Shown here: positions 30,950-47,544 of the stretch, piece by piece | Layout of the letters: the number at the start of each line of letters is the position of its first letter | How positions within the stretch are numbered: position 1 is the stretch's first letter | Assembly: GCF_023546765.1 (NCBI RefSeq) | Contig: NZ_CP097484.1 | Span: 2,760,001-2,824,000 of the forward strand | Source of the DNA: Methylobacterium tardum | Lineage (GTDB): Bacteria > Pseudomonadota > Alphaproteobacteria > Rhizobiales > Beijerinckiaceae | Reading direction: 5' to 3' | Length of the DNA stretch: 64,000 nt | Notes under the pieces: model-generated | Database searches by the model: none | What the model saw: only the letters and a program-made list of their open reading frames with translations | Told to the model about the DNA's origin: nothing | Program-made: the position numbers and the translations under genes

Positions 30950-31006
<57 letters not shown>

Positions 31007-31174
31007 AACTGCGCAGCGGGGTAACCCGGCCTAACAGTTCTCACGATTTTTGCGCCGCAAGCCGCTCCAGCGATTGGCATTTTGGCCGAAGACGCGCAAC
31101 ACCGCCTAACATTGCAATTCGGTCCTTAACGGGCCAAGCTGCATCCCCCGGTGTTACCCCGAAAGGCGCGTCTT

Positions 31175-32422
31175 GTGGCAGCAAAGGTGCTGACCGTGCA
31201 AAGCGTCGAACGCCACAAGCCACGGCCCGAGGCTCGTCTGGAAATCCCGGACGCGGCCCTGCCGGGCTTCTACCTGATCGTGCAGCCGTCGGGCTTCAAA
31301 TCGTGGGCGATACGCTATCGGATCGCCGGGAGGCCTCGGAAGCACACGATCGGCCCCTACCCGCTTTTCGACCTGGTCACCGCTCGGGCCCGGGCCCGGG
31401 AGGCGCTGCAGCTCGTCGCGCTCGGCCAGGATCCGATCCTGGTGAAGAAGGCCACGGCAGAAGCTGCGAAGGTGGCCGCCGAGGATCGCGTGGAGCGGGT
31501 CGTGACCCTCTACGTCGAGCGGCACCTGAAGCCGAACGGCAAGCCCGGCTACGCGGAGACTCAGGAGGGCTTACTTCGCAACCACATCGTACCGCGCTGG
31601 GGCCAGCGGCGGATCGGCGACGTGACCAAGCGTGAGGTGGTCGCTCTGATCGATGGCCTTACCGACGCTGGGATGACGACGGGCGCCAACCGCGTGTTCG
31701 CTGCGACTCGCGCCCTGTTCAATTTTGCTCTGCGGCGCGAGCTCATCGCCACCACGCCCTTCCTGGGTCTCAAGCCCCCGCTGGCCGAGACCAGCCGCGA
31801 CCGTGTCCTGACGGAGGCCGAGGTGCGTCTGGTCTGGCGTGCCGCCGATGCCATCGGCTTCCCGTTCGGACCGGCCGCGCAGCTGCTCCTGCTCACGGCT
31901 CAACGCCGCGACGAGGTGATCCGCATGGTCCGGAGTGAGGTCGACGGCGACCTCTGGACCCTGCCGGCCGAGCGCACGAAGAACTCGCTCGAGCACCTCG
32001 TGCCGCTGGCGCCCCCTGCCCTCTCAATCCTGAACGCCGTGCCGCGGATTGCAGGCGCCGCAGGGTACGTCTTCACTAGGTCCGGCGACGCGCCGATGTC
32101 GGACTACACCACCACCAAGGCGCGCCTGGACAAGGCCATGCTGGCGATCGCTCGCGAGGACGCGGAGGCGGCCGGCCAAGATCCCGGCAGTGTGGAGCTG
32201 AAGCCCTGGCGGCTGCACGACCTGCGGCGCACGGCCAGCACCGGCATGGCGCGCCTGGGGATCCCGCTCCACGTGACCGAGGCCGTGCTGAACCATCGGT
32301 CCGGCACGCTCGGCGGCCTCGCCGGCATCTACAACCGGTACGCCTACTTGGATGAGAAGCGTGCTGCGCTGGCGACCTGGGCGGAGCACGTCGAGGCGAT
32401 CGTGGGCGAGGCTGCTCGATGA
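31175..32422 (+). CDS. int: Tyrosine-type site-specific integrase (P4-like, DUF4102 arm domain)
   Basis: A protein of about 415 residues. The N-terminal arm-binding domain (ALPGFYLIVQPSGFKSWAIRYR...KHTIGPYP) is the DUF4102 type, followed by a SAM-like core-binding domain and the catalytic domain. The catalytic Arg is in LTAQRRDEV, the HxxR box in LHDLRRTAS, the second His in VLNHRSG, and the Tyr in IYNRYAYLDEKR. The start is uncertain: GTG 31175 has GAAAGG nearby, and GTG 31151 is also in frame. It is next to attL and fits integration into tRNA-Leu. Confidence 0.94.
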   Translation: MAAKVLTVQSVERHKPRPEARLEIPDAALPGFYLIVQPSGFKSWAIRYRIAGRPRKHTIGPYPLFDLVTARARAREALQLVALGQDPILVKKATAEAAKVAAEDRVERVVTLYVERHLKPNGKPGYAETQEGLLRNHIVPRWGQRRIGDVTKREVVALIDGLTDAGMTTGANRVFAATRALFNFALRRELIATTPFLGLKPPLAETSRDRVLTEAEVRLVWRAADAIGFPFGPAAQLLLLTAQRRDEVIRMVRSEVDGDLWTLPAERTKNSLEHLVPLAPPALSILNAVPRIAGAAGYVFTRSGDAPMSDYTTTKARLDKAMLAIAREDAEAAGQDPGSVELKPWRLHDLRRTASTGMARLGIPLHVTEAVLNHRSGTLGGLAGIYNRYAYLDEKRAALATWAEHVEAIVGEAAR

Positions 32423-33060
32423 GCGACCATGTCGACATCGCATGGATTCGTGACCGCCTCGCGAGCTCTGCGGGCATTTCGGATGCACAGGCCGGAGAGT
32501 TGATCCACGCCGCGATGATTAAGGGTGCGCTGCGGGCCGTGGCGGCTCACGCGACGCGCCGACCGGAAAGCTCAGCCGCGCACCATACAGACGAGGATTT
32601 CAGCGAGGAAGATTTCGTCATACCGCAGGTGTTTTGGGCGAGCGTGCAAGTAAGCTGGCATGACCGACACCCGTATTTTCGTTTCTTCCATAAGCGTCAA
32701 GTTTGGCTGACTTCATCACTGGCAGTGGACCGCCCGGCGGCGGTTGCATTCCTGCGGGCCAATGATCCGCTGCTCGCCATTGAGATTGTGCAGCCTGTTG
32801 CTGCACCAGCGGAACAAGGGCCGAGGATCGCCCTGCAGAAGAGCAAGGGCGGTCGCCCTGCCAAATATGATTGGGCGATGGCCGGCGGTGCATTGGCCGG
32901 GCACATGCATGGGACGGGCATTCAGGAAGGCTCCAAGCTGAAGGCGTTCATGCTCGACTGGTTTCGAGTCGAGCAGGGGCAAACCCCTGATGAGCGTGAC
33001 GTTGAGAGGTTCGTTGCGGCAGCCATAAGCGCCTTCGGTCGGGCAGTCTCCGAAGGGTAG
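32419..33060 (+). CDS. Island hypothetical protein, 213 aa
   Basis: The ATG overlaps the integrase stop (ATGA). The protein has an acidic N-terminal half (TDEDFSEEDFVIPQVFW), and a C-terminal part with the short motif KGGRPAKYDW that may be a basic DNA-contact segment, then a helical region with KAFMLDWFRVEQGQTPDERDVERF. No family recognised. Coupling to int suggests a role in integration or excision control, which is inference. Confidence 0.75.
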   Translation: MSDHVDIAWIRDRLASSAGISDAQAGELIHAAMIKGALRAVAAHATRRPESSAAHHTDEDFSEEDFVIPQVFWASVQVSWHDRHPYFRFFHKRQVWLTSSLAVDRPAAVAFLRANDPLLAIEIVQPVAAPAEQGPRIALQKSKGGRPAKYDWAMAGGALAGHMHGTGIQEGSKLKAFMLDWFRVEQGQTPDERDVERFVAAAISAFGRAVSEG

Positions 33061-33145
33061 TTTGCCCGGTTATTCCCGGTTTCCCCGGCGACAAACCCCA
33101 ACACCTGGCATCAATAGATAGCGTGTTCCTCAGAGGAGCGACGCA

Positions 33146-33361
33146 ATGAACCCTCGCATTCAGCGATCACCCGAAGACATGCTGCCGGCGGCCCAAGTCT
33201 TGGCACGCTATCAGGTCAGCGACATGACGCTCTTCCGCTGGCTGAAGGCCGCTAGACTGAGCTTCCCGCAGCCGATCCGCATCAACGGGCGCCGCTACTG
33301 GCGGCTGGCCGACCTGCAGGCCTTCGAGGCCCGGCAGGCTGCTCAGAGGGAGGCCGCCTGA
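33146..33361 (+). CDS. AlpA/MerR-like small regulator (possible excisionase)
   Basis: A 71-residue protein with a winged-helix pattern: LPAAQVLARYQVSDMTLFRWLK (recognition helix) and PQPIRINGRRYWRLADLQAFEARQ (wing). This is the AlpA/phage excisionase type that controls int and replication in P4-like elements and phage satellites. It has its own 86-nt upstream region and is the first gene of the overlapping set running to 36,131. Confidence 0.85.
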   Translation: MNPRIQRSPEDMLPAAQVLARYQVSDMTLFRWLKAARLSFPQPIRINGRRYWRLADLQAFEARQAAQREAA

Positions 33362-33362
33362 A

Positions 33363-33560
33363 ATGAGAAAACCCGCATCGCGGGGCGACACGGGTCTCTC
33401 GAATGCTGCTGTGGCGGCTAGCGTCGAGAGATTTACGTCGGTTCAGCCCCTTCGACAAGACCTGTTCCTGGCCCGCCGCTTCGGCCTCCCGCCCGCTACA
33501 GCGGCGGTGCTCGCCGAGCTTGCCTACCCGGCCGTCGACAGCTGGAGGGCGCGCGCATGA
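33363..33560 (+). CDS. Small island hypothetical protein, 65 aa
   Basis: It begins 1 nt after the AlpA-like stop. The protein ends in PATAAVLAELAYPAVDSWRARA and has no recognised domain. It overlaps the next gene by 4 nt (ATGA), which supports its being translated in the same operon. Confidence 0.6.
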   Translation: MRKPASRGDTGLSNAAVAASVERFTSVQPLRQDLFLARRFGLPPATAAVLAELAYPAVDSWRARA

Positions 33561-33907
33561 AGCTCCCCCACTATGGCCGGGCCCTCCGGGTGGCTTTTGA
33601 TGAAGCCGACATCGACGTGCAGCCCGAACAGGTCATCCAGGTACTGCGAGAAATGACGGCGGAGATAGGGGCCGCCGGCGCTGAAATCTTTGCGGCCGAG
33701 GCCGCCACTCATGCAGATGCTCCGCCGGATGCGATCCAGCTTGCGCGGCTCGCAGCCTGCAGCGAGATCGAGCGGGCTCTCAAGTGCGTCCTGACCGAAT
33801 GGGCGGTGCCGCACTCGGCCGAGACGGAGATCCTGATCGAGCTCGCCGAGGTCGCCTTCCACGCGAGGCTGGGCAGTCTGATGGGTAGCAGCGGAGGCGC
33901 TCGATGA
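33557..33907 (+). CDS. Island hypothetical protein, 116 aa
   Basis: A mostly helical acidic protein (FDEADIDVQPEQVIQVLREM...AEIFAAEAATHADAPPDAIQ...ALKCVLTEWAVPHSAETEILIELAE). It overlaps both neighbours by 4 nt (ATGA). No family recognised. It sits in the replication-side operon. Confidence 0.7.
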   Translation: MKLPHYGRALRVAFDEADIDVQPEQVIQVLREMTAEIGAAGAEIFAAEAATHADAPPDAIQLARLAACSEIERALKCVLTEWAVPHSAETEILIELAEVAFHARLGSLMGSSGGAR

Positions 33908-34182
33908 CCTGCCGCGACCTCGCTCCCGCGATCGTCCAATGCCTCGGGACGGGTTCCCCGGCGTTGCACCAGCTTATCGCTGCACACCTGTCGCGCCGCG
34001 ATCCAGCCCCGGCGATCGCGCAGGCGATTCTAGAACGATGCCTCCTTGAGGACTTCGGCCAAGCCGAGGTCTACCGCTGGATCCGCGCAATGTGGCCGAC
34101 CTCGACGTGCGAGGAGATGACCCGGGCCTACCGGATCGCCTCCGAGCTGTTCGCCGTCGACTTCCTCGCGCGGGAGGCCTGA
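33904..34182 (+). CDS. Island hypothetical protein, 92 aa
   Basis: A helical protein (LAPAIVQCLG...LLEDFGQAEVYRWIRAMWPTSTCEEMTRAYRIASELFAVDFLA). It has a 4-nt overlap with the preceding gene and 3 nt to the next. No family recognised. Confidence 0.65.
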   Translation: MTCRDLAPAIVQCLGTGSPALHQLIAAHLSRRDPAPAIAQAILERCLLEDFGQAEVYRWIRAMWPTSTCEEMTRAYRIASELFAVDFLAREA

Positions 34183-34185
34183 GCG

Positions 34186-34989
34186 ATGGCCGGCGACCTC
34201 GTGGATCGATTCCGGCTGCTGGTGGCGGCCTGCTGCGATCAGAGCCTGTCGCCGGCCGCGCGGGCCGTGCTGGCCCAGATCCTCGACCACTACAACAGCA
34301 AGACAGGGCAGTGCACGCCGTCACTGGACCGGCTCGCCCGTACCTCAGGGCTCGCGCGGAGATCAGTGGTGCGGGCCGTGAAAGAGCTGCGCGTGAAGGG
34401 CTGGATCGACCGCGAGCACGCGATCCGCGAGGACGGGCGTGCGTTCGCCTCGAACCATTTCCGGCCGGCGTTCGAGCGCGGCGACCTAGGGACAGAACGG
34501 TCCCTACCTAGGGACGAGGCTGTCCCTACCCCTGGGGACGAAACGGTCCCTAGGGTAGGGACCAAACGGTGCGCGGAGGTAGGGACCAAACGGTCCCCCG
34601 AACCTAGTAAGAAGAACCAAGGAAAAGGAACCAAGTCTGAATCGATCGACGATGCAGCCTTCGATCGCTTCTGGATGGTCTATCCCAGGAAGGTCGCGAA
34701 GGCTGCAGCCCGACCAGTCTTCGACCGGATCCTGAGCAAGGCGCAGGCTACTGCCGACGAGCTGGTGGCGGGAGCCGAGCGCTATGCAGCCGCGACGGCC
34801 GGCAAAGACCCCGAACACATCGCTCACGCCAAGACATGGCTGAACGGCGAGCGCTGGACCGATGAGCCGGCCCGTCATCGGAATCCCGATAACGGCAGCG
34901 CTGCCCGGCTGCACCAATCCGACATCAAACCCAACAGCGCCACGGCCTACCTGATGGAGCGCCGGGCCAGGAGGATGAGCCATGGCTGA
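34186..34989 (+). CDS. Phage-type replication initiator with helix-turn-helix and embedded origin
   Basis: A 267-residue protein in three parts. Residues about 8-90 are a winged helix-turn-helix (LSPAARAVLAQILDHYNSKTG, then LDRLARTSGLARRSVVRAVKEL). Residues about 100-138 are a low-complexity linker of repeated GTERS/GTKRS/GDETVP units that is the translation of iteron DNA. Residues about 155-225 (FDRFWMVYPRKVAKAAARPVFDRIL...HAKTWLNGERW) are the domain common to phage replication proteins. The organisation mirrors lambda O, whose gene contains ori. It overlaps the next gene by 8 nt. Confidence 0.85.
   Translation: MAGDLVDRFRLLVAACCDQSLSPAARAVLAQILDHYNSKTGQCTPSLDRLARTSGLARRSVVRAVKELRVKGWIDREHAIREDGRAFASNHFRPAFERGDLGTERSLPRDEAVPTPGDETVPRVGTKRCAEVGTKRSPEPSKKNQGKGTKSESIDDAAFDRFWMVYPRKVAKAAARPVFDRILSKAQATADELVAGAERYAAATAGKDPEHIAHAKTWLNGERWTDEPARHRNPDNGSAARLHQSDIKPNSATAYLMERRARRMSHG
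34485..34640 (+). other. Candidate replication origin: five palindromic iterons plus purine-rich tract
   Basis: Five copies of a 19-nt unit begin at 34488, 34510, 34534, 34557 and 34581 (spacing 22-24 nt, near two helical turns). The best copies read GGGGACGAAACGGTCCCTA and AGGGACAGAACGGTCCCTA, each with GGGAC/GTCCC dyad symmetry; copies 2 and 4 are the most degenerate. Directly after them, 34,603-34,635 is an AG-rich, lower-GC strand-biased tract that could be the unwinding element. All of it is inside the initiator gene. Confidence 0.75.
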
Positions 34990-35608
34990 TCACCCCCTGT
35001 CGCCGACCACGATTGTGCCGCTCGAGCAGCGCCCTGCGGCAACGGCCGATCCGAGAAAACTGCTCAAGATCGAGCACCTGCTGCGCGAGCACGGCAGATC
35101 GGTGGCCAGAACCTACTTCCCGACCCTGCGGGCGGGTGGGCTCAGAGATACGCCGGAGAGGCGGGCGCTGCTGGAGGCTGAGCATCGCGACGCCCTTGAA
35201 GCAATGCTTGCTGGCGCGGCCAGCATGTCGACGCTGGAGGCAATCAGCGATGCACTAGGCGCCGCCCTGGGTGCTGAGCCAGATGAAGGGGTGATCGAGG
35301 GGTGCTTGGCAGCGCTGATCGACACCCGGGTCAGGGTGCCTCACAACCTGCCGATCTACCTCGAGGCTCTAATCTACGATCTGCGAGATGAGGGATTTCC
35401 GCCGGCCGTCGTGGCAGCCGCGTGTCAGCGGATCCGGCGGGAGAGCAAGTTCCTGCCCGAGATCAGCGAGGTCCTGACCACCTGCCGAGAGACCCTGGCC
35501 CGCTACCGCGAGCAGCAGCAGCGCGTTTCGGAGGCGCTGGTGGCCCGCAGGAAGGCGGAGCGCTGGTTGTCCGATATGACCTGCACCGCTCAGGACCCGG
35601 TCCAGTGA
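34982..35608 (+). CDS. Island protein downstream of the initiator, possible helicase loader
   Basis: A 208-residue soluble protein. The C-terminal part (LRDEGFPPAVVAAACQRIRRESKFLPEISEVL) resembles segments seen in phage replication accessory proteins. Position directly after the initiator, with overlap, is where a lambda-P-type helicase loader would be. That role is inference; no loader motif is certain. It overlaps the next gene by 4 nt (GTGA). Confidence 0.65.
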   Translation: MADHPLSPTTIVPLEQRPAATADPRKLLKIEHLLREHGRSVARTYFPTLRAGGLRDTPERRALLEAEHRDALEAMLAGAASMSTLEAISDALGAALGAEPDEGVIEGCLAALIDTRVRVPHNLPIYLEALIYDLRDEGFPPAVVAAACQRIRRESKFLPEISEVLTTCRETLARYREQQQRVSEALVARRKAERWLSDMTCTAQDPVQ

Positions 35609-35823
35609 CGGGTTCTGCTTGGCAGCCGATGGCCGCCGCACCCCGAGACCGGCGGATCGACCTGCAGGCTGAGCGGTGGATGGCCGGGGGCGAGCGCCTG
35701 CGCGTCGAGGTGTTCGCCGGCTGCAAATGGAACCCGGGCGGCACGGTCCGGCATCCGGCGCCGTACTGGCGGCGGCTTCCGACGGGCTGGACCGCTACCG
35801 CGTGGCGTGAGGTGGCGCCGTGA
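35605..35823 (+). CDS. Small phage protein, 72 aa, DUF551-like
   Basis: It starts with GTG inside the previous stop. The sequence pattern WQPMAAAPRDRRIDLQAE ... YWRRLPTGWTATAWREV has the W-P-x-APRD start and the W/W end of small phage proteins of the DUF551 type. The family call is tentative. Confidence 0.6.
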   Translation: MTGSAWQPMAAAPRDRRIDLQAERWMAGGERLRVEVFAGCKWNPGGTVRHPAPYWRRLPTGWTATAWREVAP

Positions 35824-36131
35824 ACGCCGCCGAGCAGAGGGCCGAGCAGCTCGACGTCCTTGAGAAGTTGGAGAGCATGCGCGTCGCGCTCGACGAGGCG
35901 ATCAGCGTCCAGCGTCGGATGCTCGCCGAGACCGCCGTGACGATGCCGCCGCTGGCCGAGCCTGAGCGGCCGGAGTGGTTGCCGGTGAAGCTGGCCGCCC
36001 GTCAGTTGGGGATCGAGCCCATGGCCGCACGGCGTCGAGCGCAGCGTGGCCTGCGGTCTGGCCGGGCACGGAAGGTCGGGGGTCGCTTGCAGTTGCATAT
36101 GCCCAGCCAGCCGGAGCCGACCGATGGGTAG
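35820..36131 (+). CDS. Island protein with coiled-coil N-terminus and HTH-like C-terminus
   Basis: A 103-residue protein. Residues 1-40 (AEQRAEQLDVLEKLESMRVALDEA) are helical, probably coiled coil. Residues about 52-95 (WLPVKLAARQLGIEPMAARRRAQRG...RKVGGRLQLHMP) look like an excisionase-type helix-turn-helix with wing. It uses a GTG start overlapping the previous stop and is the last gene of this operon. Confidence 0.65.
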   Translation: MNAAEQRAEQLDVLEKLESMRVALDEAISVQRRMLAETAVTMPPLAEPERPEWLPVKLAARQLGIEPMAARRRAQRGLRSGRARKVGGRLQLHMPSQPEPTDG

Positions 36132-36132
36132 A

Positions 36133-36336
36133 TCAGCGAGGTCCGCCGACCCTCGGCTTCGTGTCGATCTCGATCGCTCGCAGGGCGTTCTCGAAGGCCT
36201 TGGCCTCGGTGGTGAAAGGCCGGTCCGAGCGCTCGATCAGCGTGCCGTTCCGGCGCAGCAACCAGCCGAATTGCCCTTCCGGCTTCTTCAGGGGCTCGAC
36301 GGTGATCGAATAGGGGTGCGGGACATCAGTCGTCAT
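36133..36336 (-). CDS. Small island protein on the opposite strand, 67 aa
   Basis: Starts at ATG 36336 (TTDVPHPYSITVEPLKKPEGQFGWLLRRNG). The pattern of a short beta-rich protein with EGQFGWLLRRNGTLIERSDRPFTTEAKAFENALRAIE is found in many small rhizobial proteins of unknown function. It converges on the replication operon with one base between stops, so it may mark the end of that transcription unit. Confidence 0.7.
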   Translation of the reverse strand: MTTDVPHPYSITVEPLKKPEGQFGWLLRRNGTLIERSDRPFTTEAKAFENALRAIEIDTKPRVGGPR

Positions 36337-36731
36337 GGCCGAGCTATGCAGTCCCGAGATGAGGCCTGCACTTACATGGCTCAATCACATGCCGCGGCGG
36401 GCGTGATCGGTGAGGTGCCCCGCTGCACCTCATTCCATCTGCTGACGGTCTTCGTGATCGTCCCCGGCTTGCTGATCCATCGCATGTCTCCGCCGGTGAG
36501 AACTGCAACGCCTGCGCCAGAGCGCGGCCGCAGGCACTTCAGTGGATGGCATCGTGGTTAACGAAAGCTTTCGCGCCGGTCCGGGACCCAGGCACTCCAC
36601 TGCCTTGCCGGGACGACGGCGAGGGAGGGTGCTCAGTTCTCTGGGTCCTTCTGGAGGGGTACCACCCCGGAGGTAACGCGCGAGGCTCGGGCCTTTCCCA
36701 GCGATGAAATTTGCATAGGGGGTTGTTGTTT
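36337..36731. other. Gap between the replication and packaging sides of the island
   Basis: A 395-nt stretch with no convincing gene. A 34-codon minus-strand frame near 36,400-36,505 (GTITKTVSRWNEV) lacks a ribosome site. The region probably holds divergent promoters for the small minus-strand gene and the terminase-side genes. Confidence 0.35.
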
Positions 36732-37256
36732 ATGTCCGATCATCGAGGACGCGCACTGAACCGCGCTGAACTGGCCGACTACACCGGCCGCAGCTTGCCC
36801 ACGATCGACGCGTGGGTGCGTGCTGGCTGCCCGTACAAAGGCCGCGGCAGCAAAGGCAAAGAGTGGATTTTCAACTCGGCCGCCGTGTTGGATTGGCTTG
36901 AGGCTCGGGCGGCCGCGCGCACAACCGTAGGCATACCGAAGGGCGATCTGGATCCGGCGCAGGAACGTGCGCGGAAAGACAGGGCGCTCGCCGAACAGAC
37001 CGAGATGAGGAACGCCGAGCGCCGGGGCGAGCTCGTCAACATCGAGGAGGTGGGCGTTGTCGTAGAGCGTGAGTTCTCGGTGGTCCGTGAGCGCTCGCTC
37101 AGCATCACCGGCCGGCTCAGCGGGAAGCTGTCGCCCGAGCAGCTTCGGTGGGTCGAGGACGAGATCCGAGAGGCGCTGTCCGACCTGTCCGCCGGTGAGG
37201 ACATCGAGCCAGTTCAGCAGGCCAGGGCACGTGGCGCAAAAGCTGGCAAGCGATGA
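36732..37256 (+). CDS. Phage terminase small subunit, Nu1-like
   Basis: A 174-residue protein. The N-terminal winged helix (LNRAELADYTGRSLPTIDAWVRAGCPYKGRG, then WIFNSAAVLDWL) is the Nu1 DNA-binding domain that recognises the packaging site. The rest is a helical oligomerisation region with a long charged helix (PAQERARKDRALAEQTEMRNAERRGEL). No large terminase gene follows, which is unusual for a complete prophage and expected for some phage satellites. Confidence 0.85.
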   Translation: MSDHRGRALNRAELADYTGRSLPTIDAWVRAGCPYKGRGSKGKEWIFNSAAVLDWLEARAAARTTVGIPKGDLDPAQERARKDRALAEQTEMRNAERRGELVNIEEVGVVVEREFSVVRERSLSITGRLSGKLSPEQLRWVEDEIREALSDLSAGEDIEPVQQARARGAKAGKR

Positions 37257-37294
37257 ACAGCGTAAGGGGGCGTCAGCAGCATGGCGAGCGACGG

Positions 37295-37339
37295 CCTCCC
37301 ACCATTTTGCGGCGAATCCGCAGCGGAAATGGTGGGAGG
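37295..37339. other. Long stem-loop downstream of the small terminase gene
   Basis: A 13-bp perfect outer stem (CCTCCCACCATTT with AAATGGTGGGAGG) encloses an inner 5-bp stem (TGCGG/CCGCA) with loop CGAAT and a 4-nt bulge. It starts 39 nt after the terminase stop. It could be a terminator or a packaging-related site. It has no T-tract. Confidence 0.6.
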
Positions 37340-37443
37340 TTTGCGCGTTACCGCTGAGGTGGGGCGCTCTGTGAGAGAATCCCGCAGGGTAACAACCACC
37401 TATTCGCAATTGTTCCCAACTCGATGTACTTTGGGGGTTTACT

Positions 37444-37791
37444 TTGCCTGCAAAACTTATCGCCTTCGATACACATGACAATAAATCAAGTGGTCGAGAA
37501 GCATTTGAGAAATCTCTCGAAAAGGTTGGATGGGTCAACTTCATTGTAAGAAATGACAAGTACATCAAATTGCCGGACACAACTCTGGTAGCCAATCGAA
37601 CAGTCAAGCAAACTCTTAGAGATATTAAGGCAGCGCAAAAGAAAGCTAAAGACAAAGACGACTCTTTTGAGCTAAAGAAGTGCATTGTTACAAACTATTC
37701 CGGCAGATTTGCCATAGATTCAGATAAGAAGGACGCAGACAAATCTCAAATTGTACTATACAGAATTGCCATGAGTGGCATGTTGCCGTAA
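37444..37791 (+). CDS. Low-GC island protein, possible Cas2/VapD-like fold
   Basis: A 115-residue Lys-rich protein with a TTG start at 37444 and GGGGG about 8 nt upstream. GC is far below the neighbourhood. The order of predicted elements (strand KLIAFDTHD, helix REAFEKSLEKVGWVN, strand KYIKLPDTTLVAN, helix RTVKQTLRDIKAAQKK, strand LKKCIVTNYSGRFAI) recalls the small ferredoxin-like nucleases/toxins of the Cas2-VapD type. That is a weak structural inference. It lies alone between phage genes and looks like a late insertion. Confidence 0.65.
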   Translation: MPAKLIAFDTHDNKSSGREAFEKSLEKVGWVNFIVRNDKYIKLPDTTLVANRTVKQTLRDIKAAQKKAKDKDDSFELKKCIVTNYSGRFAIDSDKKDADKSQIVLYRIAMSGMLP

Positions 37792-38006
37792 TGCTAAGCC
37801 GCAAAATTTCAGGGTAATTTGGCGGCAGCTTGTCGCGTTTTGTGACCCCCGCGACGGCCCATTGTCGCCTTTTGTGACCTCCCCGGGCCCGTAGCTCTCA
37901 CCGACACTGCTCCTCGTTGCGCACCGGAGGTCATGCCGGGCTGCGCGGCAGGAGCGGCGCCTTTCCTCGCGGGCTTGGCGCCGCTCCCCAGATCCGGGGA
38001 GCACAG

Positions 38007-39035
38007 ATGCTGGGACGACGGGACAAGGCGAAGGGCCTGGAGGCCGAGGTTCAGAGCCTGGAGGTGCGCCGCACGGGCGTGATGAACCGGCTCACCGACG
38101 CCACCACCCGCCACGAGGCCGCGATCGCCGAGCAGCGGCGCTTCCTCGTCGACACGGACGGCGCCGACGCCCGGCAGTCCAAGGCCGTCGCGGAGGCCTG
38201 CCGGAAGGCCGCTGACGACCGTGCAGCGCTCGAGGATGCGGCCCGCACGCTGGCCGGCTTGATCGAGGACGCGAAAGCTCGGCTGGCCGCCGAGCGCGAC
38301 CGGCGTGAGCGGGACCGGACCGCCGGCGAGATCGAGGCCGGCGCTGCCGCGATCGAGGCTGCCGCCGCCGAGCTGGACCGAGCCGCGACTGCCTTCGACA
38401 CCGCCCGCGAGCGGCTCGTAGCCGTCTGCCGCACCTCGGCCCCGCACGATCCGGTCCTGGGCTACGGTCCGGACGGCGGGATCATCACCGCCGCGGGCCG
38501 CCTCGCAGGTATCCTCTCCCGCGAAAACCCGATGGCCTACATGGGTAACGTCCACCACATCGGCGCCGTGCCGGCGGCGGCCGGCACCGTGGCGGCCATG
38601 CGCGAGAACGCCCGCGCGATCCGCCAGGGCTCGGCGCCGAGCGTGCTACCGCAGAAGCCCTTGGCGATACCGGCGCCGATCGCGTACCCGATGGTGCGGG
38701 TCTGTCTCGCCCAGCCGGCATATTACAAAGGCGCCTGGGGCCACCGGATCGACCTGTTCCCCGGCAATATCGAGCTGCCGGAGCCGGCGGCGCAGACCGC
38801 GATCGCGAAGGGCATCGGCTTCACGCCGAGCAGCGCGGCCGGCCAGACTATCACGCGGGCTCTCCGGATTGAGCCGAACGCCAGCTTCGAGACCGACGGC
38901 AACGGGTCGGTGCGCGTGGTGAAATTCAGCGGCGCCCTGGGCGAGGGAGGCAAGGGCCTGCCACCCGCGGCGCCGCCGGTCGACTTGGGCACGATGCCCG
39001 ACACGCTCGCCGCGCTTCCGGAGGCCGCCCAGTGA
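38007..39035 (+). CDS. Phage hypothetical protein with N-terminal coiled coil
   Basis: A 342-residue protein. Residues about 5-140 are long charged helices rich in Ala, Arg and Glu (AEVQSLEVRRTGVMNRL...AARTLAGLIEDAKARLAAERDRRERD), likely a coiled coil. The C-terminal half has LGYGPDGGIITAAGRLAGIL and IDLFPGNIELPEP and seems globular. No family is recognised. It overlaps the protease gene by 4 nt (GTGA). The arrangement suggests a morphogenesis accessory or scaffold, which is inference. Confidence 0.75.
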   Translation: MLGRRDKAKGLEAEVQSLEVRRTGVMNRLTDATTRHEAAIAEQRRFLVDTDGADARQSKAVAEACRKAADDRAALEDAARTLAGLIEDAKARLAAERDRRERDRTAGEIEAGAAAIEAAAAELDRAATAFDTARERLVAVCRTSAPHDPVLGYGPDGGIITAAGRLAGILSRENPMAYMGNVHHIGAVPAAAGTVAAMRENARAIRQGSAPSVLPQKPLAIPAPIAYPMVRVCLAQPAYYKGAWGHRIDLFPGNIELPEPAAQTAIAKGIGFTPSSAAGQTITRALRIEPNASFETDGNGSVRVVKFSGALGEGGKGLPPAAPPVDLGTMPDTLAALPEAAQ

Positions 39036-39651
39036 GGCGCTACTCCCTCGCGCGGTCGGACGGCGCGATCTGGATCAATGGGCCGATCTACCCGGATCGG
39101 GTCAGCGCGGCCGCCCTGCGCCGATCCTTCCTGGAGATCGATTCGACCGGCCCGGTGCGGGTCGTGGTCGATACGCCCGGCGGATCCTGCGCTGAGGGCT
39201 TGGCGATCTACACCATCCTGCGCGAGTGCGGCCGGCGGATAGAAGTGACGATCCGGGCAGCCTTCAGCATGGGCGCCATCGTCGCCGCAGCCGGCCACAC
39301 GGTTGCGATCGAGGCGACCGGCGCCATCGGCTTGCACGCGGCGGGCGTCGCCGGCGACCACTTTGCCGACGCAGGCACAGACCTTCCGCACCACGTCACC
39401 GCCGAGCAACTTCGGCGCCTCGCCCGCGGCCTGTGGTCGGCCGACGCGACCCGGGCGGACGCAGAGCGTGTGCTGTGCCGGCCGCGACCGCTGAGGCCGC
39501 TGACGCGACGCACCTCGACGTTCTGTCCCGCCGAACCGGCCTGCTGCGGCACGAGCTGACCGCCCTGCGCGCCGCCGAGACCGTTCTGACCGCCGAGCGG
39601 GCGATCGAACTCCGCTTCGCCGACTGCATCATCCCGACCCTGGAGACCTGA
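39032..39651 (+). pseudogene. ClpP-like prophage protease, frameshifted
   Basis: Resembles the ClpP/prohead-protease fold: WINGPIYPDRVSAAALRRSFLEI, VVVDTPGGSCAEGLAIYTIL, AFSMGAIVAAAGHTVAIEATGAIGLH with the catalytic Ser in FSMGA, and a later His. Near 39,470 the frame is lost. The other frame gives LSRRTGLLRHELTALRAAETVLTAERAIELRFADCI, a good ClpP C-terminus with the AERAIELRFAD signature. Inserting one G at about 39,472 joins the parts. Assembly error or decay. It would process structural proteins of the phage. Confidence 0.78.
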
Positions 39652-39652
39652 C

Positions 39653-39976
39653 ATGGCCGACGCCTACAACGACCTCGCGGCTTTGGCCGCCAAGGATCCC
39701 GCCGGCAAGGGCCGGCTCTGGTTCGTCCGCGATGCGAGTGCCTGGAGCTACGCCGGGTGCGCGATCGAGGCTCGCGCCTCGAACATCCGCGTGCCGATTG
39801 AGAGCGTGCCCGACAGCCGCGTCCAGGCCGCGCTGCAGGACGGCAGCTGGGTCGGCAGTGTCGCCGACACCTCCGCCACGCCGATCACGCTCCTGGCCGT
39901 GCAGAAGGCCCCGGATCCGGGCGTCGCGTTCCGCCCTCTGACCCGCGCCGACCTCGGCACCGCGGCGGCCGCCTGA
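39653..39976 (+). CDS. Small phage protein, 107 aa, unknown
   Basis: It begins 1 nt after the protease stop. The protein (KGRLWFVRDASAWSYAGCAIEARASNIRVPIESVPD...GSWVGSVADTSATPITLLAVQ) looks beta-rich. No family recognised. Its place between protease and tape measure would fit a small head or tail component, which is inference. Confidence 0.65.
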   Translation: MADAYNDLAALAAKDPAGKGRLWFVRDASAWSYAGCAIEARASNIRVPIESVPDSRVQAALQDGSWVGSVADTSATPITLLAVQKAPDPGVAFRPLTRADLGTAAAA

Positions 39977-40011
39977 CCGCCCGCCATCCGCCTGCCACGT
40001 AGGAGAGCGCC

Positions 40012-42768
40012 GTGTCCGATGAAGTCCTCCGCATGCAAGCCGAGGTGCAGGACCGCTACAGCGGCCCGCTGAAGGCACTGCGAGCCCAGCTGCTCGACAC
40101 CGCCCGCACCGGCAACAATCACAGCGAGACGCTGGCCAAGGGCTTCGGCGCCGTCGAGGGCGCGCTTCAGAAGACCGCTCGCACCGCGTCGAGCGTCGTC
40201 AACCCGGCCTTCGCCGCGCTCGGCGTGACCGGCCTCACGGCAGGCGCGGCCGTCGCCGGAATCTCGGCTGCGCTGAACAAGCTCACCACCAACATGTCCG
40301 GTCTGGGCCAGTTGAGCCGAGAGAGCGGAGTAGCGGCCAAGACGCTCCAAGAATTTTCGTCTGTGGCCGGCCGGTTCGGCATTGAGCAGGATGCTGTTGC
40401 CGCCGCGACCAAGAACTTCGCCGCTCAGATGCGGACGTTCTCGATCGGCACCGGTGACGCCTTCAACTGGGTGATCCGGCAGGGCCGTGATGCGGCTGGC
40501 CGCAAGGCGTTCCAGGATTTCGCGACCGACCTGCAGCACACCTCGGACGAGGGCGAGAAGCTCAAGAAGGCGCTCGCCTTCATGGAGACAATCCGTAACC
40601 CGGTTGAGCGGGGCATCTTCGCTCAGCAGTTCTTCGGGAATCAGGACCTCGGCCGCATCGCCGACGGCCATCTTGGACCAGTCCTGGAGCTGTTTCGGAA
40701 GGCGCGCGAAAAGCTCGGCGAGTTCAAGATCGAGGACGTCATTGACGCCGAGAAGTTCGACCGTTCGCTGAACAGCCTCAAGGGCTCGATGCAGCGCCTC
40801 GGCACGACGATCGCCCGGGAGGTGCTGGGCCCGGCCACGGACCTGACAACCTGGGCGGACGAGCTTGTATCGGGCCAGCGCGCCGACGTGACCAAATCGC
40901 TCCGTGAGGGCCTGCAGGGCGTCAAGAAGGAGCTCGGCGAGATCAACTGGAAGCAGTTCGGCGAGGACACGGTGAAGGGCCTGCAGGCCGGAACGGCGCT
41001 GGCCGGTTCACTCGCCAGGACGATGCACGAGATTGCAGAGGCCATCCACGCGATCCGCGGCGGTGAGTATGCTCAGGCTGCTCGTGGCCTCGACGGCGCC
41101 TCCGGGCCGCTCGCTCGCGCGCTGGCCCCACGGGTCGGCGACGATGAGATCGACGCTCAGGAGAACGTCGACCGCTTGCGCAAGATGAAAGAGGTCGCCG
41201 ACGAGGCGGGGCAGCACCTCATCGGCCGGACGCAGCAGCGCCTCGGCCTGCTCCCAGGCTCGGACCAGGCCGGCAAGGATCTTGAGGCAGCGGAAGCGCG
41301 CTTGAAGGCGCTCCAGGGCCGCACGCCCGAGCAGCGCCAGAAGGACTTCGAGGCGTCCGAGAAGCTCCGCAAGAGCGTGGACGGCCTCACCGACGAGATG
41401 AAGGCCAGTCGCGGCGGCGCCACCGTCCAGAAGCAGTCCATGGACACGCAGGGTGGCCTGTTCGGTGGCGCCACGGTGCAGACGGCTGCGTTCGGCGGCG
41501 GAGGCGGATTCCGACGGTTCGGCGGCTACGGCGGGGGTGCGAACCTGCCCGTGGGTGGTGATGACCCCGTCATTCACGGCGGCCCGCAAGGGGGCCACGC
41601 GACGGGTCCGCAGGTGGATCGCCCACGCCCGGCTGGCCCACAGGTCGAGCGCCGAGGCGGATCTGGGCCGGGCTACCGCGGTGAGCAGGGACTCGGCGGA
41701 CTTGCGGGGCGCAGCTTCGGCGGCGGCGGCCGGTTCAATGGCCTGGGCGGGACCCGACCCAGCATCCCGCCGATCGGGCCGCGGCCGGCAGTGCCGTCCA
41801 TTGATTTGCCGGGTGGCTACACGGGCAATGACGGGCGCAGGGCAGCTCGCAGCGGCATGACGACTGGCGGTCGTGAGCGCGTCGCGTCGTGGCTGGAATT
41901 CATGCAGCGCCCCATCGACCAGGGCGGAATGGGGTTCACCCGTGACGAGGCCTATGGCCAGATCGCGATGATGCAGGGTGAGAGCGGGCTCAACCTGAAC
42001 CCGGCGGCTGAGGGCGATCACGAGGACCCTATACGGAAGATCAACCCTCACGCCTTCGGCACCGTCCAGTGGAGTGACGCCCGCGGCAACAAGCGATTTC
42101 CGATGCTTCGGGCGCTCGCCGAGCGGATGGGCAAGGACTGGCGCGACGTAAGCGTGCAGCAGCAGATGTACCGGGCCGAGATGCTGCGGGAGGGACGTGG
42201 CGGCTACAGGCACGTCTACGACGCGATTAAGCGCAACGGCACGGGCGAGGGCTCGCTGCGGTTCGGCATCAACGGATACGAGAACCCGCAGAAGAAGGAT
42301 CTCGCTTACGCGATCCGCAAACCCTTCCTCGACCGACTACGTCGCGATCAGTCTGGCCCAACTGCCGAGCGCGCGGATGGTGACGGCACCGATCTGCTGC
42401 CGGGCGGCGCTCCTCGGCTCATACGGCCTAACAGCATGGGCGGTGCGCACGGCCTGACCATGGATCAGGCAGCCGCGATGCGCGAAGGCAAAGCCGACGG
42501 CGCCGGCTGGGCGGCACGGGAAGCCGCACGGAAGACGTTCGAGGCTCAGCAGGCCGAGGCGGCTGGCTTACGGACCGGCGGAGCGAGGGTAGCGGCGACC
42601 GCTGCGCGTGCCGGAGTCGTGGCGATGCCCAAGGTGGAGAACAACGGGAGCGTGGTCGTGAACGTTCTGGAGCCCGGCCCTAAGACCCGGGTGGCGACGA
42701 CGGCCAGCGGCAAGCTGTTCCAGGACGTCGTGCAACGCAGCGGCGCTCAGATGCGCCGGGCGGACTAA
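40012..42768 (+). CDS. Phage tail tape-measure-like protein with a C-terminal phage-tail lysozyme domain
   Basis: A 918-residue protein with a GTG start and an AGGAGA ribosome site. Residues 1-450 are helical and Ala-rich, with a hydrophobic segment (FAALGVTGLTAGAAVAGISAAL, about residues 68-89). Residues about 480-610 are Gly/Pro-rich low complexity (GGGGGFRRFGGYGGG). Residues about 620-735 match a phage-tail lysozyme (VASWLEFMQRPIDQGGMGF, IAMMQGESGLNLNPAAEGD with the catalytic Glu, FGTVQWSDARGNKRF). It would set tail length and cut peptidoglycan on entry. No tail-tube genes are nearby. Confidence 0.82.
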   Translation: MSDEVLRMQAEVQDRYSGPLKALRAQLLDTARTGNNHSETLAKGFGAVEGALQKTARTASSVVNPAFAALGVTGLTAGAAVAGISAALNKLTTNMSGLGQLSRESGVAAKTLQEFSSVAGRFGIEQDAVAAATKNFAAQMRTFSIGTGDAFNWVIRQGRDAAGRKAFQDFATDLQHTSDEGEKLKKALAFMETIRNPVERGIFAQQFFGNQDLGRIADGHLGPVLELFRKAREKLGEFKIEDVIDAEKFDRSLNSLKGSMQRLGTTIAREVLGPATDLTTWADELVSGQRADVTKSLREGLQGVKKELGEINWKQFGEDTVKGLQAGTALAGSLARTMHEIAEAIHAIRGGEYAQAARGLDGASGPLARALAPRVGDDEIDAQENVDRLRKMKEVADEAGQHLIGRTQQRLGLLPGSDQAGKDLEAAEARLKALQGRTPEQRQKDFEASEKLRKSVDGLTDEMKASRGGATVQKQSMDTQGGLFGGATVQTAAFGGGGGFRRFGGYGGGANLPVGGDDPVIHGGPQGGHATGPQVDRPRPAGPQVERRGGSGPGYRGEQGLGGLAGRSFGGGGRFNGLGGTRPSIPPIGPRPAVPSIDLPGGYTGNDGRRAARSGMTTGGRERVASWLEFMQRPIDQGGMGFTRDEAYGQIAMMQGESGLNLNPAAEGDHEDPIRKINPHAFGTVQWSDARGNKRFPMLRALAERMGKDWRDVSVQQQMYRAEMLREGRGGYRHVYDAIKRNGTGEGSLRFGINGYENPQKKDLAYAIRKPFLDRLRRDQSGPTAERADGDGTDLLPGGAPRLIRPNSMGGAHGLTMDQAAAMREGKADGAGWAAREAARKTFEAQQAEAAGLRTGGARVAATAARAGVVAMPKVENNGSVVVNVLEPGPKTRVATTASGKLFQDVVQRSGAQMRRAD

Positions 42769-42771
42769 GCC

Positions 42772-43335
42772 TTACTCCCGCTGACAGGCGTTCGGCGGGT
42801 TCTGCAGGGCATCTTTTGCCTTCGGATTGCCCTCAAAGGCACTCTTCACCAGCCGGCCACACCGGGACTCCGGCTTGCTAAGGTATTGGCCTGCCACATC
42901 ACCTACGCAGGCAGAGCAAAGCCCCATCTGCGATAGGGTGTCCTCCGTGTCGTACCGGCGGAGCTGCGCGGGCGTGAACTTCTCGCGGATAATGTCGACC
43001 GGATAGAAGGTGTCCTCGTCATCCTGGTAGTCGGACTTCGAGCCAATCTTGCAGTTGGTGAGGCGCAGCGCCTCGACCTTCTCGCCCTTGATCGTCACGT
43101 GCGTCGGGTAACAGTAGCCGCCATGGGAGCAGAACACGGCACGCTTCGTCGCCTTGCTGACCCGGTACTGGGTGATGGCCGCGTCGATGTCTCCCTTCGC
43201 CAGGATCGAGTCGGGAGCCTCGATGGCCGGGACATCGCGCAACGCGATCGCCTCACAAGCGTCCCAAGCCCAGGCCCTGTCGATACCCCCACCGGCAGCG
43301 ACGACGAGAGCGAGGGCGGCGAGGGCTGTGCGCAT
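42772..43335 (-). CDS. Secreted Cys-rich hypothetical protein, 187 aa
   Basis: A signal peptide in residues 1-23 (ALAALALVVAAGGGIDRAWA) precedes a mature part with seven Cys residues (DACEAIAL, AVFCSHGGYCYPTHV, TNCKIG, MGLCSACVGD, RCGRLV, NACQRE counting several pairs). Disulfides are likely in the periplasm. On the opposite strand to the phage genes, so it may be a separately acquired cargo gene, for example a superinfection or envelope factor. No family recognised. Confidence 0.75.
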   Translation of the reverse strand: MRTALAALALVVAAGGGIDRAWAWDACEAIALRDVPAIEAPDSILAKGDIDAAITQYRVSKATKRAVFCSHGGYCYPTHVTIKGEKVEALRLTNCKIGSKSDYQDDEDTFYPVDIIREKFTPAQLRRYDTEDTLSQMGLCSACVGDVAGQYLSKPESRCGRLVKSAFEGNPKAKDALQNPPNACQRE

Positions 43336-43461
43336 GGCGGTAGGATAGCTAAATTTTGCGAGCCGAAAAATGGGGAGAGATCCCTGAACTTAAGAGAAAG
43401 TCGAAGCTGTTGAGTCGTCCGTAAGGCGCGCGCTCCTCAATCCGCCTTGTCATAGAACGAC

Positions 43462-44214
43462 CTAGTTCGTGCACGGCATAGCTGCATCTACAGCTACTGC
43501 ATGGGCAATACCCATTGTGATCGTCCATTGCCCTTGCGCCTCAAGATAAGCCTTCAACTTGATGTAAATATCGCTCCCAGTCAGTATCGTGGACGCAGTT
43601 GCACTGTACTCCCTCGTAGGCCCACACTCATCAAGCAATCCTTCGATTGTCCGGGTCAGCCTTCGCAACGGACGCATCGGCCGAACAGCTCCTAACACTT
43701 GACGATATATAGTATCAGCGTCGAGCAATCTCTCGTTTATGGATTCTCCGATTTCGAAACGCACCTTCGTCATTCTAAGCGAGTTATTTAAATCCAATAC
43801 TTCAATAGTATTTTCACCTTCAGTGCTGAGGTGTTTAAAGCGATAATTCTTCAGACAGAGATGATCTTTCGGATTTGCCCGGGTTGGATCGACAATGTCA
43901 CCCTCGGCGATTACGTCGTAACCCCCTTTCTGAACATTGCAGCGCTTGCAGGATGGCAACAAATTGAACCAATCAACGACCAAATGTGCGTGATTGCTCT
44001 TACATAAAAAGTGGTCTACCTCCATGTACTTAGACTCTTCATTTACAATAGCCTCGCAATAAACGCATTTCGAATGAGACATGGCCATCAACGTGGATCG
44101 AATATAATCTTTGTTCCACACCGAGGCTTCGCTTCTCGCGAATTCTGCGATTAATTCTGTCTGCACTTGCTGGGTTAGTTCGGCGGGTGACGGAGCGCGG
44201 CTGACTCTGATCAT
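43462..44214 (-). CDS. ptuB: HNH endonuclease, PtuB-like (Septu defence)
   Basis: A 250-residue protein. The HNH/treble-clef motif is complete: CVYC (50-53), MEVDHFLCKS with His68, NLLPSCKRC with Asn84 and Cys89/Cys92, then CNVQKGG. This DHF..KS...DWFNLLPSC pattern is that of PtuB, the nuclease of Septu. Its start overlaps the ATPase stop (ATGA), so the pair is translationally coupled. GC is clearly lower than the host. The predicted action is cutting phage DNA when triggered by the ATPase. The assignment rests on motif pattern and gene pairing. Confidence 0.85.
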   Translation of the reverse strand: MIRVSRAPSPAELTQQVQTELIAEFARSEASVWNKDYIRSTLMAMSHSKCVYCEAIVNEESKYMEVDHFLCKSNHAHLVVDWFNLLPSCKRCNVQKGGYDVIAEGDIVDPTRANPKDHLCLKNYRFKHLSTEGENTIEVLDLNNSLRMTKVRFEIGESINERLLDADTIYRQVLGAVRPMRPLRRLTRTIEGLLDECGPTREYSATASTILTGSDIYIKLKAYLEAQGQWTITMGIAHAVAVDAAMPCTN

Positions 44215-45401
44215 TTATCCGCACCCAGCACGGGTGCGGCCTGAATTCTGACGAGCTTGCGCATATTGTTTCTTGGATGGAGCATGTGTTCAATCGCGTG
44301 CAGACTTGATCTCAGTCGCGCAATATCCTCATCATCTAAGGCTTCTTCAAAACTGCGAAATAGTTCTTTCTTTATTTCAGAGTCCGTATCCTCCATGCCC
44401 ATAACGTCTTCCAAGATTTCTTCGATAGTCCACCCTTGGAAGCCATAATCAGAATGTGGCAAGTCCGAAACACGAGGAAAGCCACCGTTAAAATTCACCA
44501 ATGCAATAACTTGATCGGATTTCGCGCTCTGAATCATATGAGGACTATGGCTCGTGACTATGATCTGAGCGTTTGGGAAAGTTCCTTGAAGCGCAAGAGG
44601 TATGTTTTTCTGCCACACAGGGTGGAGATGTAAATCAAGCTCATCTATTATTATAATCCCGGCGAACTCTTCGGCCGCCACTCCTAAGCTGCGGGCCTCG
44701 ATTTCTTTTATTATTCCCAGTAGTAAAGACAGCGACGCCCGAAATCCAGAGGAGAGCAACTCATACTGCACCAGGCCGTATCTTGTGTTAACCATTACAT
44801 CATATGTTTGAACGTTAACGTGAGACAGACTTACCGTTGGGTCCAGAAGAGAAAAACACTTCAAAGACAATTCCAGATTTTTCCTGTATTCTGGTGGCCA
44901 CGAGTCGCTCCTGGGCTCAAAAAGCCATCTATTGGCAAACCAATTTTTTATATCGTTGTATTGAATGCCTCTTTGCGCAAATTCATTATTCATATGCTCC
45001 TGGCGAATTTCTCCAGGACTGATGTGCGGAAGTCGATGGTACTGGAAATCTCTATTTGTGTTCAGGAAGATTACATTATTTGCTAAGCTACGCTGTCCAT
45101 ATGGCTGATCACCCCCTGCCGGGTCAGTGTTATTTACAAATCCCTGAGCGTTTATGATCCGATCGTTTTCTTGGACCTGATATACGATCTCGCCTGGCAT
45201 GCTCGCAGCAGTGTTGCGCCTGACCATTTGGTTTTGAAATGCACCGTTGAAGCAAGAAGAGGCTAGAAGCAGCAGAGAAGTTTTGCCGACGCCGTTGGTT
45301 CCACAAATCAAATTGTACCGAGGATTGAAATCAATCCGGATTTTATCGAAGCAAGCGATGCGCTCCGCTTTAATGAAATTGAGCCTGATACGATCTGCCA
45401 T
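44211..45401 (-). CDS. ptuA: AAA-family ATPase, PtuA-like (Septu defence)
   Basis: A 396-residue SMC/ABC-type AAA ATPase. Walker A GTNGVGKT (residues about 34-41), a signature-like SSGFRASLSLLLGI, Walker B GIIIIDELDLHLHP and the switch VTSHSPHMIQS are all visible. This set with an adjacent HNH nuclease defines Septu (PtuA-PtuB). The start is uncertain; the ATG at 45401 begins exactly at the domain (MADRIRLNFIKAERI), with other in-frame starts at 45428 and 45461. GC is low, pointing to foreign origin. No retron or TIR gene is adjacent, so it looks like the basic two-gene form. Confidence 0.85.
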   Translation of the reverse strand: MADRIRLNFIKAERIACFDKIRIDFNPRYNLICGTNGVGKTSLLLLASSCFNGAFQNQMVRRNTAASMPGEIVYQVQENDRIINAQGFVNNTDPAGGDQPYGQRSLANNVIFLNTNRDFQYHRLPHISPGEIRQEHMNNEFAQRGIQYNDIKNWFANRWLFEPRSDSWPPEYRKNLELSLKCFSLLDPTVSLSHVNVQTYDVMVNTRYGLVQYELLSSGFRASLSLLLGIIKEIEARSLGVAAEEFAGIIIIDELDLHLHPVWQKNIPLALQGTFPNAQIIVTSHSPHMIQSAKSDQVIALVNFNGGFPRVSDLPHSDYGFQGWTIEEILEDVMGMEDTDSEIKKELFRSFEEALDDEDIARLRSSLHAIEHMLHPRNNMRKLVRIQAAPVLGADK

Positions 45402-45498
45402 GGCACAATGATCCCAAAACTGGTTCATGATCCAACGATCTTGATGAGCGTCGGAAATCACGCAATTAAGTTATATTTAGCTGAAATGCTTGATCATA

Positions 45499-45723
45499 CT
45501 AGATTAAGTCCTGGCGTTTTGGCCTGGAGCCATGAGCGCAAAGCCAATCCGCTAGAATGTGTCGCACCGCTTCTGGGCGCGTAGGCTTGGGCTCCGGCTG
45601 ATCTGAGATCCAGGCGTCGAGCGGCGCCAACTGCTCAGGCGGCAGCCGCACGTTCACAGGCGTGGCGTCGATCCGAGGCCGACCGCGCGAAGATTTTCTA
45701 GCGCTAGCTATTGCGGCCTCCAT
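45499..45723 (-). CDS. Ribbon-helix-helix-like DNA-binding protein, 74 aa
   Basis: The segment RGRPRIDATPVNVRLPPEQLAPLDAWISDQPEPKPTRPEAVRHILADWL has the beta-strand (VNVRLP), helix, turn, helix pattern of the RHH (CopG/MetJ) family. It lies upstream of the Septu pair on the same strand and could regulate it. Two copies of a 14-nt operator-like repeat overlap its start, suggesting autoregulation. No ribosome site precedes the ATG at 45723. Confidence 0.7.
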   Translation of the reverse strand: MEAAIASARKSSRGRPRIDATPVNVRLPPEQLAPLDAWISDQPEPKPTRPEAVRHILADWLCAHGSRPKRQDLI

Positions 45724-45735
45724 TTTCTAGCGCTA
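45693..45735. promoter_or_regulatory. Operator-like direct repeat with palindromic core at the RHH gene start
   Basis: ATTTTCTAGCGCTA occurs at 45693-45706 and 45722-45735, a 29-nt period. The core TAGCGCTA is self-complementary. One copy overlaps the start codon side and one lies inside the first ten codons. This fits cooperative binding by the ribbon-helix-helix protein and could also control the divergent gene at 45,807. Confidence 0.6.
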
Positions 45736-45806
45736 ATAATAACGAGCCGACCGAGCGCTTGCAACACTCGATCGGCCCTGACCACGCACGTCCGTCGGAG
45801 ACGATC

Positions 45807-46073: not shown

Positions 46074-46083
46074 GGAGGCTGCC

Positions 46084-46908: not shown

Positions 46909-46910
46909 CC

Positions 46911-47455: not shown

Positions 47456-47544
<89 letters not shown>

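Follow-up and report, generated by a model that had tools for sequence, protein, structure and literature searches.

A probable lambda-type replication origin inside the initiator gene of a phage-derived, satellite-like island of Methylobacterium tardum

The window, by which we mean the whole stretch of 64,000 nucleotides of Methylobacterium tardum DNA that was analysed, contains an island of 16,506 bp (31007-47512) between 57-bp perfect repeats (100% identical) at a tRNA-Leu gene. One of the island genes encodes an O-like replication initiator, and the DNA for the linker of this protein carries an array of repeated dyads, or iterons. The features of the island are given here with their coordinates in the window.

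30950..31006, plus strand: left att repeat of 57 bp, 100% identical to 47456-47512
31151..32422, plus strand: tyrosine integrase of the island (Pfam Phage_integrase and Arm-DNA-bind_3; phrog_1, 3.1e-55)
33146..33361, plus strand: small HTH excisionase-like or AlpA-like regulator (phrog_4745, 1.7e-10; excisionase families phrog_66 and phrog_1553)
34186..34989, plus strand: O-like replication initiator gene, 267 aa, with a winged-helix N domain, a linker predicted to be disordered and a small helical C domain
34489..34504, no strand assigned: iteron 1, perfect dyad GGGACAGAACGGTCCC, frame 0
34511..34526, no strand assigned: iteron 2, perfect dyad GGGACGAGGCTGTCCC, frame 1
34535..34550, no strand assigned: iteron 3, perfect dyad GGGACGAAACGGTCCC, frame 1
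34558..34573, no strand assigned: iteron 4, imperfect, frame 0
34582..34597, no strand assigned: iteron 5, perfect dyad GGGACCAAACGGTCCC, frame 0
34599..34648, plus strand: A-rich and purine-rich tract of low stability with GAACC repeats, the presumed unwinding element
34982..35608, plus strand: gene overlapping the initiator end, 208 aa, candidate partner or helicase loader by synteny only
36711..37256, plus strand: terminase small subunit (phrog_57, 3.6e-26)
39032..39559, plus strand: head maturation protease-like protein of the ClpP family (phrog_94, 1e-12; Pfam CLP_protease, 4.1e-7)
40012..42768, plus strand: tape-measure-like protein with a phage tail lysozyme domain (phrog_8125, 1.1e-9; Pfam Phage_lysozyme2, 1.6e-10)
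47456..47512, plus strand: right att repeat, the 3' part of tRNA-Leu(TAA) (47458-47544, minus strand)

The regulator at 33146..33361 is one that we take to be AlpA-like; this label is our own.

Four perfect GGGAC-N6-GTCCC dyads, starting at 34489, 34511, 34535 and 34582, lie in the linker DNA of the initiator gene. The unit at 34558-34573 (GGGACCAAACGGTGCG), fourth in order, has an intact left arm and a broken right arm. The first-pass annotation of this DNA had reported five palindromic iterons recurring every 22-24 nt. Their place, four of the palindromes and the recurrence (22, 24, 23 and 24 nt from start to start) were found again, but the fifth palindrome was not, as the unit at 34558 is broken. 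The two arms of a dyad are separated by 11 bp, or about one helical turn, and successive units by about two turns. All four perfect copies of GGGACN6GTCCC in the window belong to the array, and genome-wide the perfect dyad occurs 14 times in 6.94 Mb, 4 of these copies being located within the 109 bp of the array. Four perfect dyads were obtained in none of 5000 synonymous-codon shuffles of the gene (mean 0.3). With one mismatch allowed, 47 of the 5000 shuffles reached four dyads, and it is therefore the perfect copies that are exceptional. The iterons occupy two reading frames (0, 1, 1, 0, 0) and are thus not explained by the protein. No DnaA box was detected at 33.0-36.5 kb with three patterns on both strands.

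The tract at 34599-34648 has a GC content of 44%, compared to 65.5% for the initiator gene, and consists of 68% purines, in agreement with the AG-rich, lower-GC stretch that had been noted directly after the units. The least stable 50-nt window of the initiator gene starts at 34600, and equally weak windows make up 1.5% of those in 31007-42700 and 3.5% of those across the whole island. GAACC is present at 34600, 34614 and 34628, that is, in exact 14-nt steps and in three reading frames. The extremes of the GC skew of the island (32347 and 43426) are located apart from the repeats.

The initiator matched HTH_36 in Pfam (3.9e-14) and, with both domains covered (residues 18-244), phrog_270, a family named 'replication initiation protein' (1.6e-35). 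Weaker matches were obtained to the O-like families phrog_391 and phrog_678; phrog_277, the lambda O family, was absent among the 20 families listed for the initiator at E <= 0.01, and there was no Rep_3-type domain among the Pfam matches. An AlphaFold2 model based on 54 sequences (mean pLDDT 80, pTM 0.49) showed a winged helix (about residues 1-94) and a helical domain (156-225), separated by a stretch of low confidence (about 99-150). The iteron DNA falls in this stretch, which is probably disordered and in which residues 99-109 and 111-137 have a pLDDT below 50; the model is thus consistent with the earlier description of a low-complexity linker between two globular domains. The linker peptide is partly repetitive (GTKR, DETVP). 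In fold searches, the best PDB matches were winged-helix regulators, none with an E value below 0.001, and those in a viral library were phage HTH, replisome-organiser and RepA-like proteins. The best solved relatives in a sequence-profile search included AdcR and DnaD (5e-4 to 1e-3).

The first-pass annotation had likened this arrangement to phage lambda O and its ori. In the lambda record NC_001416, O contains four annotated iterons (39034-39118), whose starts follow at 20, 24 and 23 nt and which occupy frames 0, 2, 2 and 1; the tract behind them has a GC content of 22%. Lambda ori and the island thus share iterons inside the initiator gene, a spacing of about two turns and a low-GC, purine-rich tract directly downstream, and in both cases the next gene overlaps the initiator end. 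In contrast to lambda, the iterons of the island number five rather than four and have different arm sequences. The next gene in lambda is P, whereas that of the island, 34982-35608, belongs to no recognised family. Lambda O matched phrog_277 (1.2e-152) and the island initiator phrog_270, although both matched phrog_391, phrog_678 and phrog_345. The layout would therefore work like lambda ori, but with an initiator that stands outside lambda O's own family. Iteron plasmids with RepA/Rep_3 initiators likewise have repeated binding sites at about two-turn spacing and an adjacent weak tract. The repeats and the weak tract of the island are alike, but its sites are located inside the initiator gene and the initiator has no Rep_3-type domain.

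The first-pass annotation had also placed the constraint on the DNA, a claim that would fail if homologues kept the amino acid linker and lost the palindromes. The nearest homologue of the initiator, in Methylobacterium sp. J-077 (locus L031), has 89% protein identity, and this record is identical over 3612 bases to genome G359 of the same genus. Among codons for identical residues, synonymous changes relative to L031 were found in 2 of 55 in the iterons and tract (34480-34647) compared to 48 of 176 in the remaining codons of the gene (Fisher p = 4e-5); restricting the segment to the iterons gave 2 of 39 (p = 0.001). The comparison uses a single close pair and a segment picked once the repeats had been seen, and a local exchange could yield a similar patch of low divergence. 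None of the three nucleotide differences within 34480-34647 touches an intact arm: 34520 lies in the spacer of unit 2, and 34569 and 34575 lie within the broken half of unit 4 or immediately behind it. In more distant homologues, four units, three of them perfect, were found in L002 (62-63% protein identity) and five units, four of them perfect and with the spacing of the window, in L266, on a 31,760-bp viral contig (53-54% protein identity). Dyads at 22-25 nt spacing are thus kept in L031, L002 and L266, which, together with the two reading frames and the codon shuffles, bears out a constraint on the DNA. All four aligned sequences (window, L031, L002 and L266) have a defect in one arm of the next-to-last unit, namely in the right arm in three of them and at one left-arm base in L266.

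A search for the dyad pattern with 2 mismatches in 111 genomes of the genus gave mostly scattered single sites and was informative only for G359 and G008, the reversed-pattern control being as frequent or more so in many of the genomes. As a separate observation, contig C1 of G307 (about 5786263-5787131, L067) carries an initiator relative that is split into two frames near the iterons, whereas the downstream partner gene is open.

The gene at 34982-35608 was found in 7 of the 111 genomes, always directly downstream of a near initiator relative, and a 17-kb viral contig carries an initiator relative together with a gene of this type. Its product showed no recognisable homology to helicase loaders and had no PHROG match up to E 1, no Pfam match, no PDB match and no match in phage records. 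Weak Pfam matches were obtained for some of six relatives of the product, the best being DUF4164 (0.0078) in one of them, and a structure model based on three sequences was too poor for use.

Taken together, these sequence features make it very likely that the initiator gene of this phage-derived, satellite-like island harbours, at 34489-34648, a lambda-type replication origin. The N-terminal winged-helix domain would bind the GGGACN6GTCCC dyads as dimers, and the bound array would open the adjoining weak tract, in which the three GAACC in 14-nt steps would mark one strand. The C-terminal domain would then recruit the replicative helicase, perhaps via the 34982-35608 product. Since the linker is predicted to be disordered, the protein would accept any peptide that the origin DNA dictates, which would make this a clear case of a DNA function dictating a protein linker. 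The origin would serve the 16.5-kb island integrating at tRNA-Leu. The locus is a concrete candidate for the origin of a mobile island, and its presence suggests that the island, after excision, multiplies as a replicon of its own.

For the insertion site, 59 genomes were searched for the right junction, and the 20 best loci, including that of the window, were read. Four of the 19 loci of relatives (L288-L291) have a contiguous empty site. In L288 (G348) the flanks of the window are contiguous at 92 and 94% identity with the 57-bp core shared, and in L289-L291 the same flanks are contiguous at 83-90%. The left flank was near with a gap in 7 of the other loci and was not found within the locus in 8. 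The island is therefore precisely inserted at a site that is empty in relatives, which makes excision followed by replication plausible. The 3' part of tRNA-Leu(TAA) (47456-47512; L288-L306) looks like a busy integration site across the genus. Some genomes are empty at this site, and others have a second att-like copy, as in G337, where one lies about 33 kb from the tRNA.

Phage-inducible chromosomal islands are, as a rule, elements of 10-20 kb with an integrase, a small HTH regulator, a replication gene and a terminase small subunit, and without virion structural genes. With 16.5 kb, a tyrosine integrase, a small HTH regulator, its own initiator and a terminase small subunit, the island resembles them; unlike them, it has head protease-like and tape-measure-like genes. 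It is possibly a satellite that alters the particle of a helper. No replicative helicase gene was recognised on the island, and the whole island as query gave no near match in phage records.

An unlikely alternative, yet one to be weighed seriously, is that the origin is of lambda type by descent only and no longer fires, the island being a decayed remnant. A PHROGs scan of 19 island ORFs recognised neither a portal nor a capsid or large terminase gene, and iteron 4 is broken; both observations would fit such decay. However, unit 4 is imperfect in all four aligned sequences and hence not freshly decayed, the initiator frame is open, the iterons are under constraint and the att repeats are intact. 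In addition, the J-077 element has an integrase, the initiator, the next gene, the protease and the tape measure in the same order as the island, so that the initiator, the next gene and the protease-like and tape-measure-like genes (the latter two in L031 11258-15782) recur there. Among its 10 ORFs scanned, one gave a weak match to a major head protein (9.4e-4).

The dyads could also be operators only, through which the winged-helix protein represses or activates its own operon, with no function as an origin. The winged-helix domain does resemble regulators such as MarR-type proteins and CodY, and the repeats are located inside the operon. We nevertheless consider this reading improbable, as an array in mid-gene at two-turn spacing with a repeated tract of low stability is the plan of lambda ori and recurs in related initiators. 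Relatives in phrog_270, the family named for replication initiation, come from Arthrobacter, Lactococcus, Pontimonas and Vibrio phages and from phage-plasmids (the phrog_270 match itself was checked for L082, L087 and L266). They share with the island initiator the winged-helix N domain, repeat-bearing linker DNA and the C-domain motifs FxxFW..YP and WLNxxRW-like, and differ from it in the repeat sequence, which varies by lineage. Two circular phage-plasmid records, from Sulfitobacter (46.4 kb) and Microbulbifer (43.5 kb), contain phage structural genes and an initiator relative adjoining a gene for a DnaB-like or replicative helicase. No other replication initiator is named among their 72 and 56 listed genes, many of which are hypothetical, in PLSDB tables that are incomplete. 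Autoregulation could coexist with the function as an origin.

A survey of the initiator family was carried out. Relatives were found by genome, related-locus and DNA-similarity searches using the window protein or alignments containing it, and the set is for this reason not a random draw of phages. The viral contigs came from two alignment searches, of which the best 80 of 553 and the best 80 of 502 confirmed loci among the matches listed were taken; the initiator as lone query found no viral contig. From 276 loci, 177 with an open frame and the C-domain motif were retained (178 frames), of which 174 frames matched the family profile and 147 did so from within its first 60 positions. Culling to below 70% mutual identity left 87 genes, 65 from viral contigs, 15 from genomes (that of the window included) and 7 from annotated records. 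The linker was taken as the 75 codons preceding the FW motif, which cut some long linkers short.

Repeats in the linker exceeded those in synonymous shuffles in 70 of the 87 genes (p <= 0.05), in 63 of them at p <= 0.01, and showed no significant excess in 17. Repeated dyads were significant in only 31 genes, and three or more copies were present in 11; perfect palindromes are therefore not a rule of the family. In distant relatives the layout is kept and GGGAC is replaced by GTGTC, GTGCAC, CGGCA, GGGGTGAC and others. A first peak of the lags between repeats lay at 22 nt (36 genes; shuffle mean 3.8) and 23 nt (46 genes; shuffle mean 4.3) and recurred as harmonics at 44-47 nt. A second peak was found at 12-17 nt (13 nt in 16 genes; shuffle mean 1.8), and some other lags, such as 8, 10, 11, 29, 35, 39, 42 and 49, exceeded the shuffle maximum slightly. 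Of the 87 linkers, 64 had lags of 22, 23 or 25 nt, compared to 10.5 in shuffles; the same lags were present in 7 of the 87 N domains (shuffle maximum 6, a slight excess) and in 4 of the 87 C domains (maximum 9). The control lags of 28, 29, 31 and 32 nt were also in excess (14 of 87 linkers, maximum 9), so that a minor share of the lag signal reflects general repetitiveness.

These data bear on the view that the linker functions as a repetitive peptide and the DNA repeats only follow from it, which we regard as very improbable. The repetitive GTKR and DETVP stretches are in fact partly kept in L002 and L266. On the other hand, one DNA unit is read in different frames, here and in relatives; the repeats beat peptide-preserving shuffles in most of the surveyed genes; and the linker is predicted to be disordered in the AlphaFold2 model. 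Furthermore, in the range of 20-26 nt, lags not divisible by 3 outnumber those that are, at 100 versus 45 gene counts, whereas shuffles gave 13.5 and 19.4.

Indirect support for a binding of the iterons by the N domain comes from covariation. In 95 genes with iteron repeats, retained after 90% culling, repeat similarity correlated with N-domain identity when C-domain identity was given (partial r 0.184, reached in 0 of 1000 permutations), whereas the converse value for the C domain given the N domain was 0.028 (231 of 1000 permutations). The small r is due to most gene pairs sharing nothing. Pairs were also compared with an identity above 0.5 for one domain and a difference above 0.15 to the other. 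At these equal thresholds, repeats were shared by 24 of the 68 pairs with mainly N-domain similarity and by 4 of the 253 with mainly C-domain similarity; a first pair count with unequal thresholds had given 24 of 68 versus 3 of 485, and an identity floor of 0.6 gave 24 of 56 versus 3 of 46. The repeat sequence thus follows the DNA-binding N domain and not the C domain, although the proximity of the iterons to the N domain means that physical linkage may add to the covariation. The last 60 nt track both domains (0.240 and 0.224, each 0 of 300 permutations).

That the dyads act as RNA hairpins in the transcript, for example by pausing or attenuating the operon, is hardly credible: the arms of each perfect unit could pair into a hairpin of 5 bp with 6 nt in the loop, but many relatives have repeats without significant dyads (31 versus 70 of 87 genes), the spacing is held near 22-23 nt while the repeat sequence changes, as expected for DNA phasing, and the repeat sequence tracks the DNA-binding domain.

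Beyond the origin proposed for the island, the survey points to a regularity in the order of the two kinds of repeats. In 45 of the 53 genes having both, the 22-24-nt repeats are located upstream of the 11-17-nt ones. The core of the second array is AACC, often GAACCA, which is the most enriched 6-mer repeated within linkers (present in 17 of 87 genes, with 2.0 expected and a maximum of 6 in 100 shuffles). We tentatively propose, as a generalisation that may or may not hold, that the O-like initiators of many phages follow a design with two rulers. An array of about 22-24 nt would vary with the winged helix, and an array of about 12-17 nt in the weak tract, shared more widely, would provide a strand-specific signal for loading or melting. 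The linker would then exist to hold the origin, and origins would be readable from initiator genes in phages and satellites. The repeat layout would in this case allow origins and initiator specificities to be predicted from sequence. The single case described here is another instance of the known lambda-type plan, and the regularity of the two rulers is the more interesting part.

The remaining observations concern the cargo of the island and the rest of the window. PtuB (4.6e-75) and PtuA (1.4e-119) are encoded at 43462-45461 on the minus strand and form a Septu-type defence pair. This stretch has a GC content of 46%, compared to about 66% for 31-41 kb. A 21-nt direct repeat, 95% identical, is present at 34982-35002, the start of the post-initiator gene, and at 45101-45121 in the PtuA gene region. 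An ordinary TPP riboswitch is located at 58050-58178 on the minus strand (56.0 bits).
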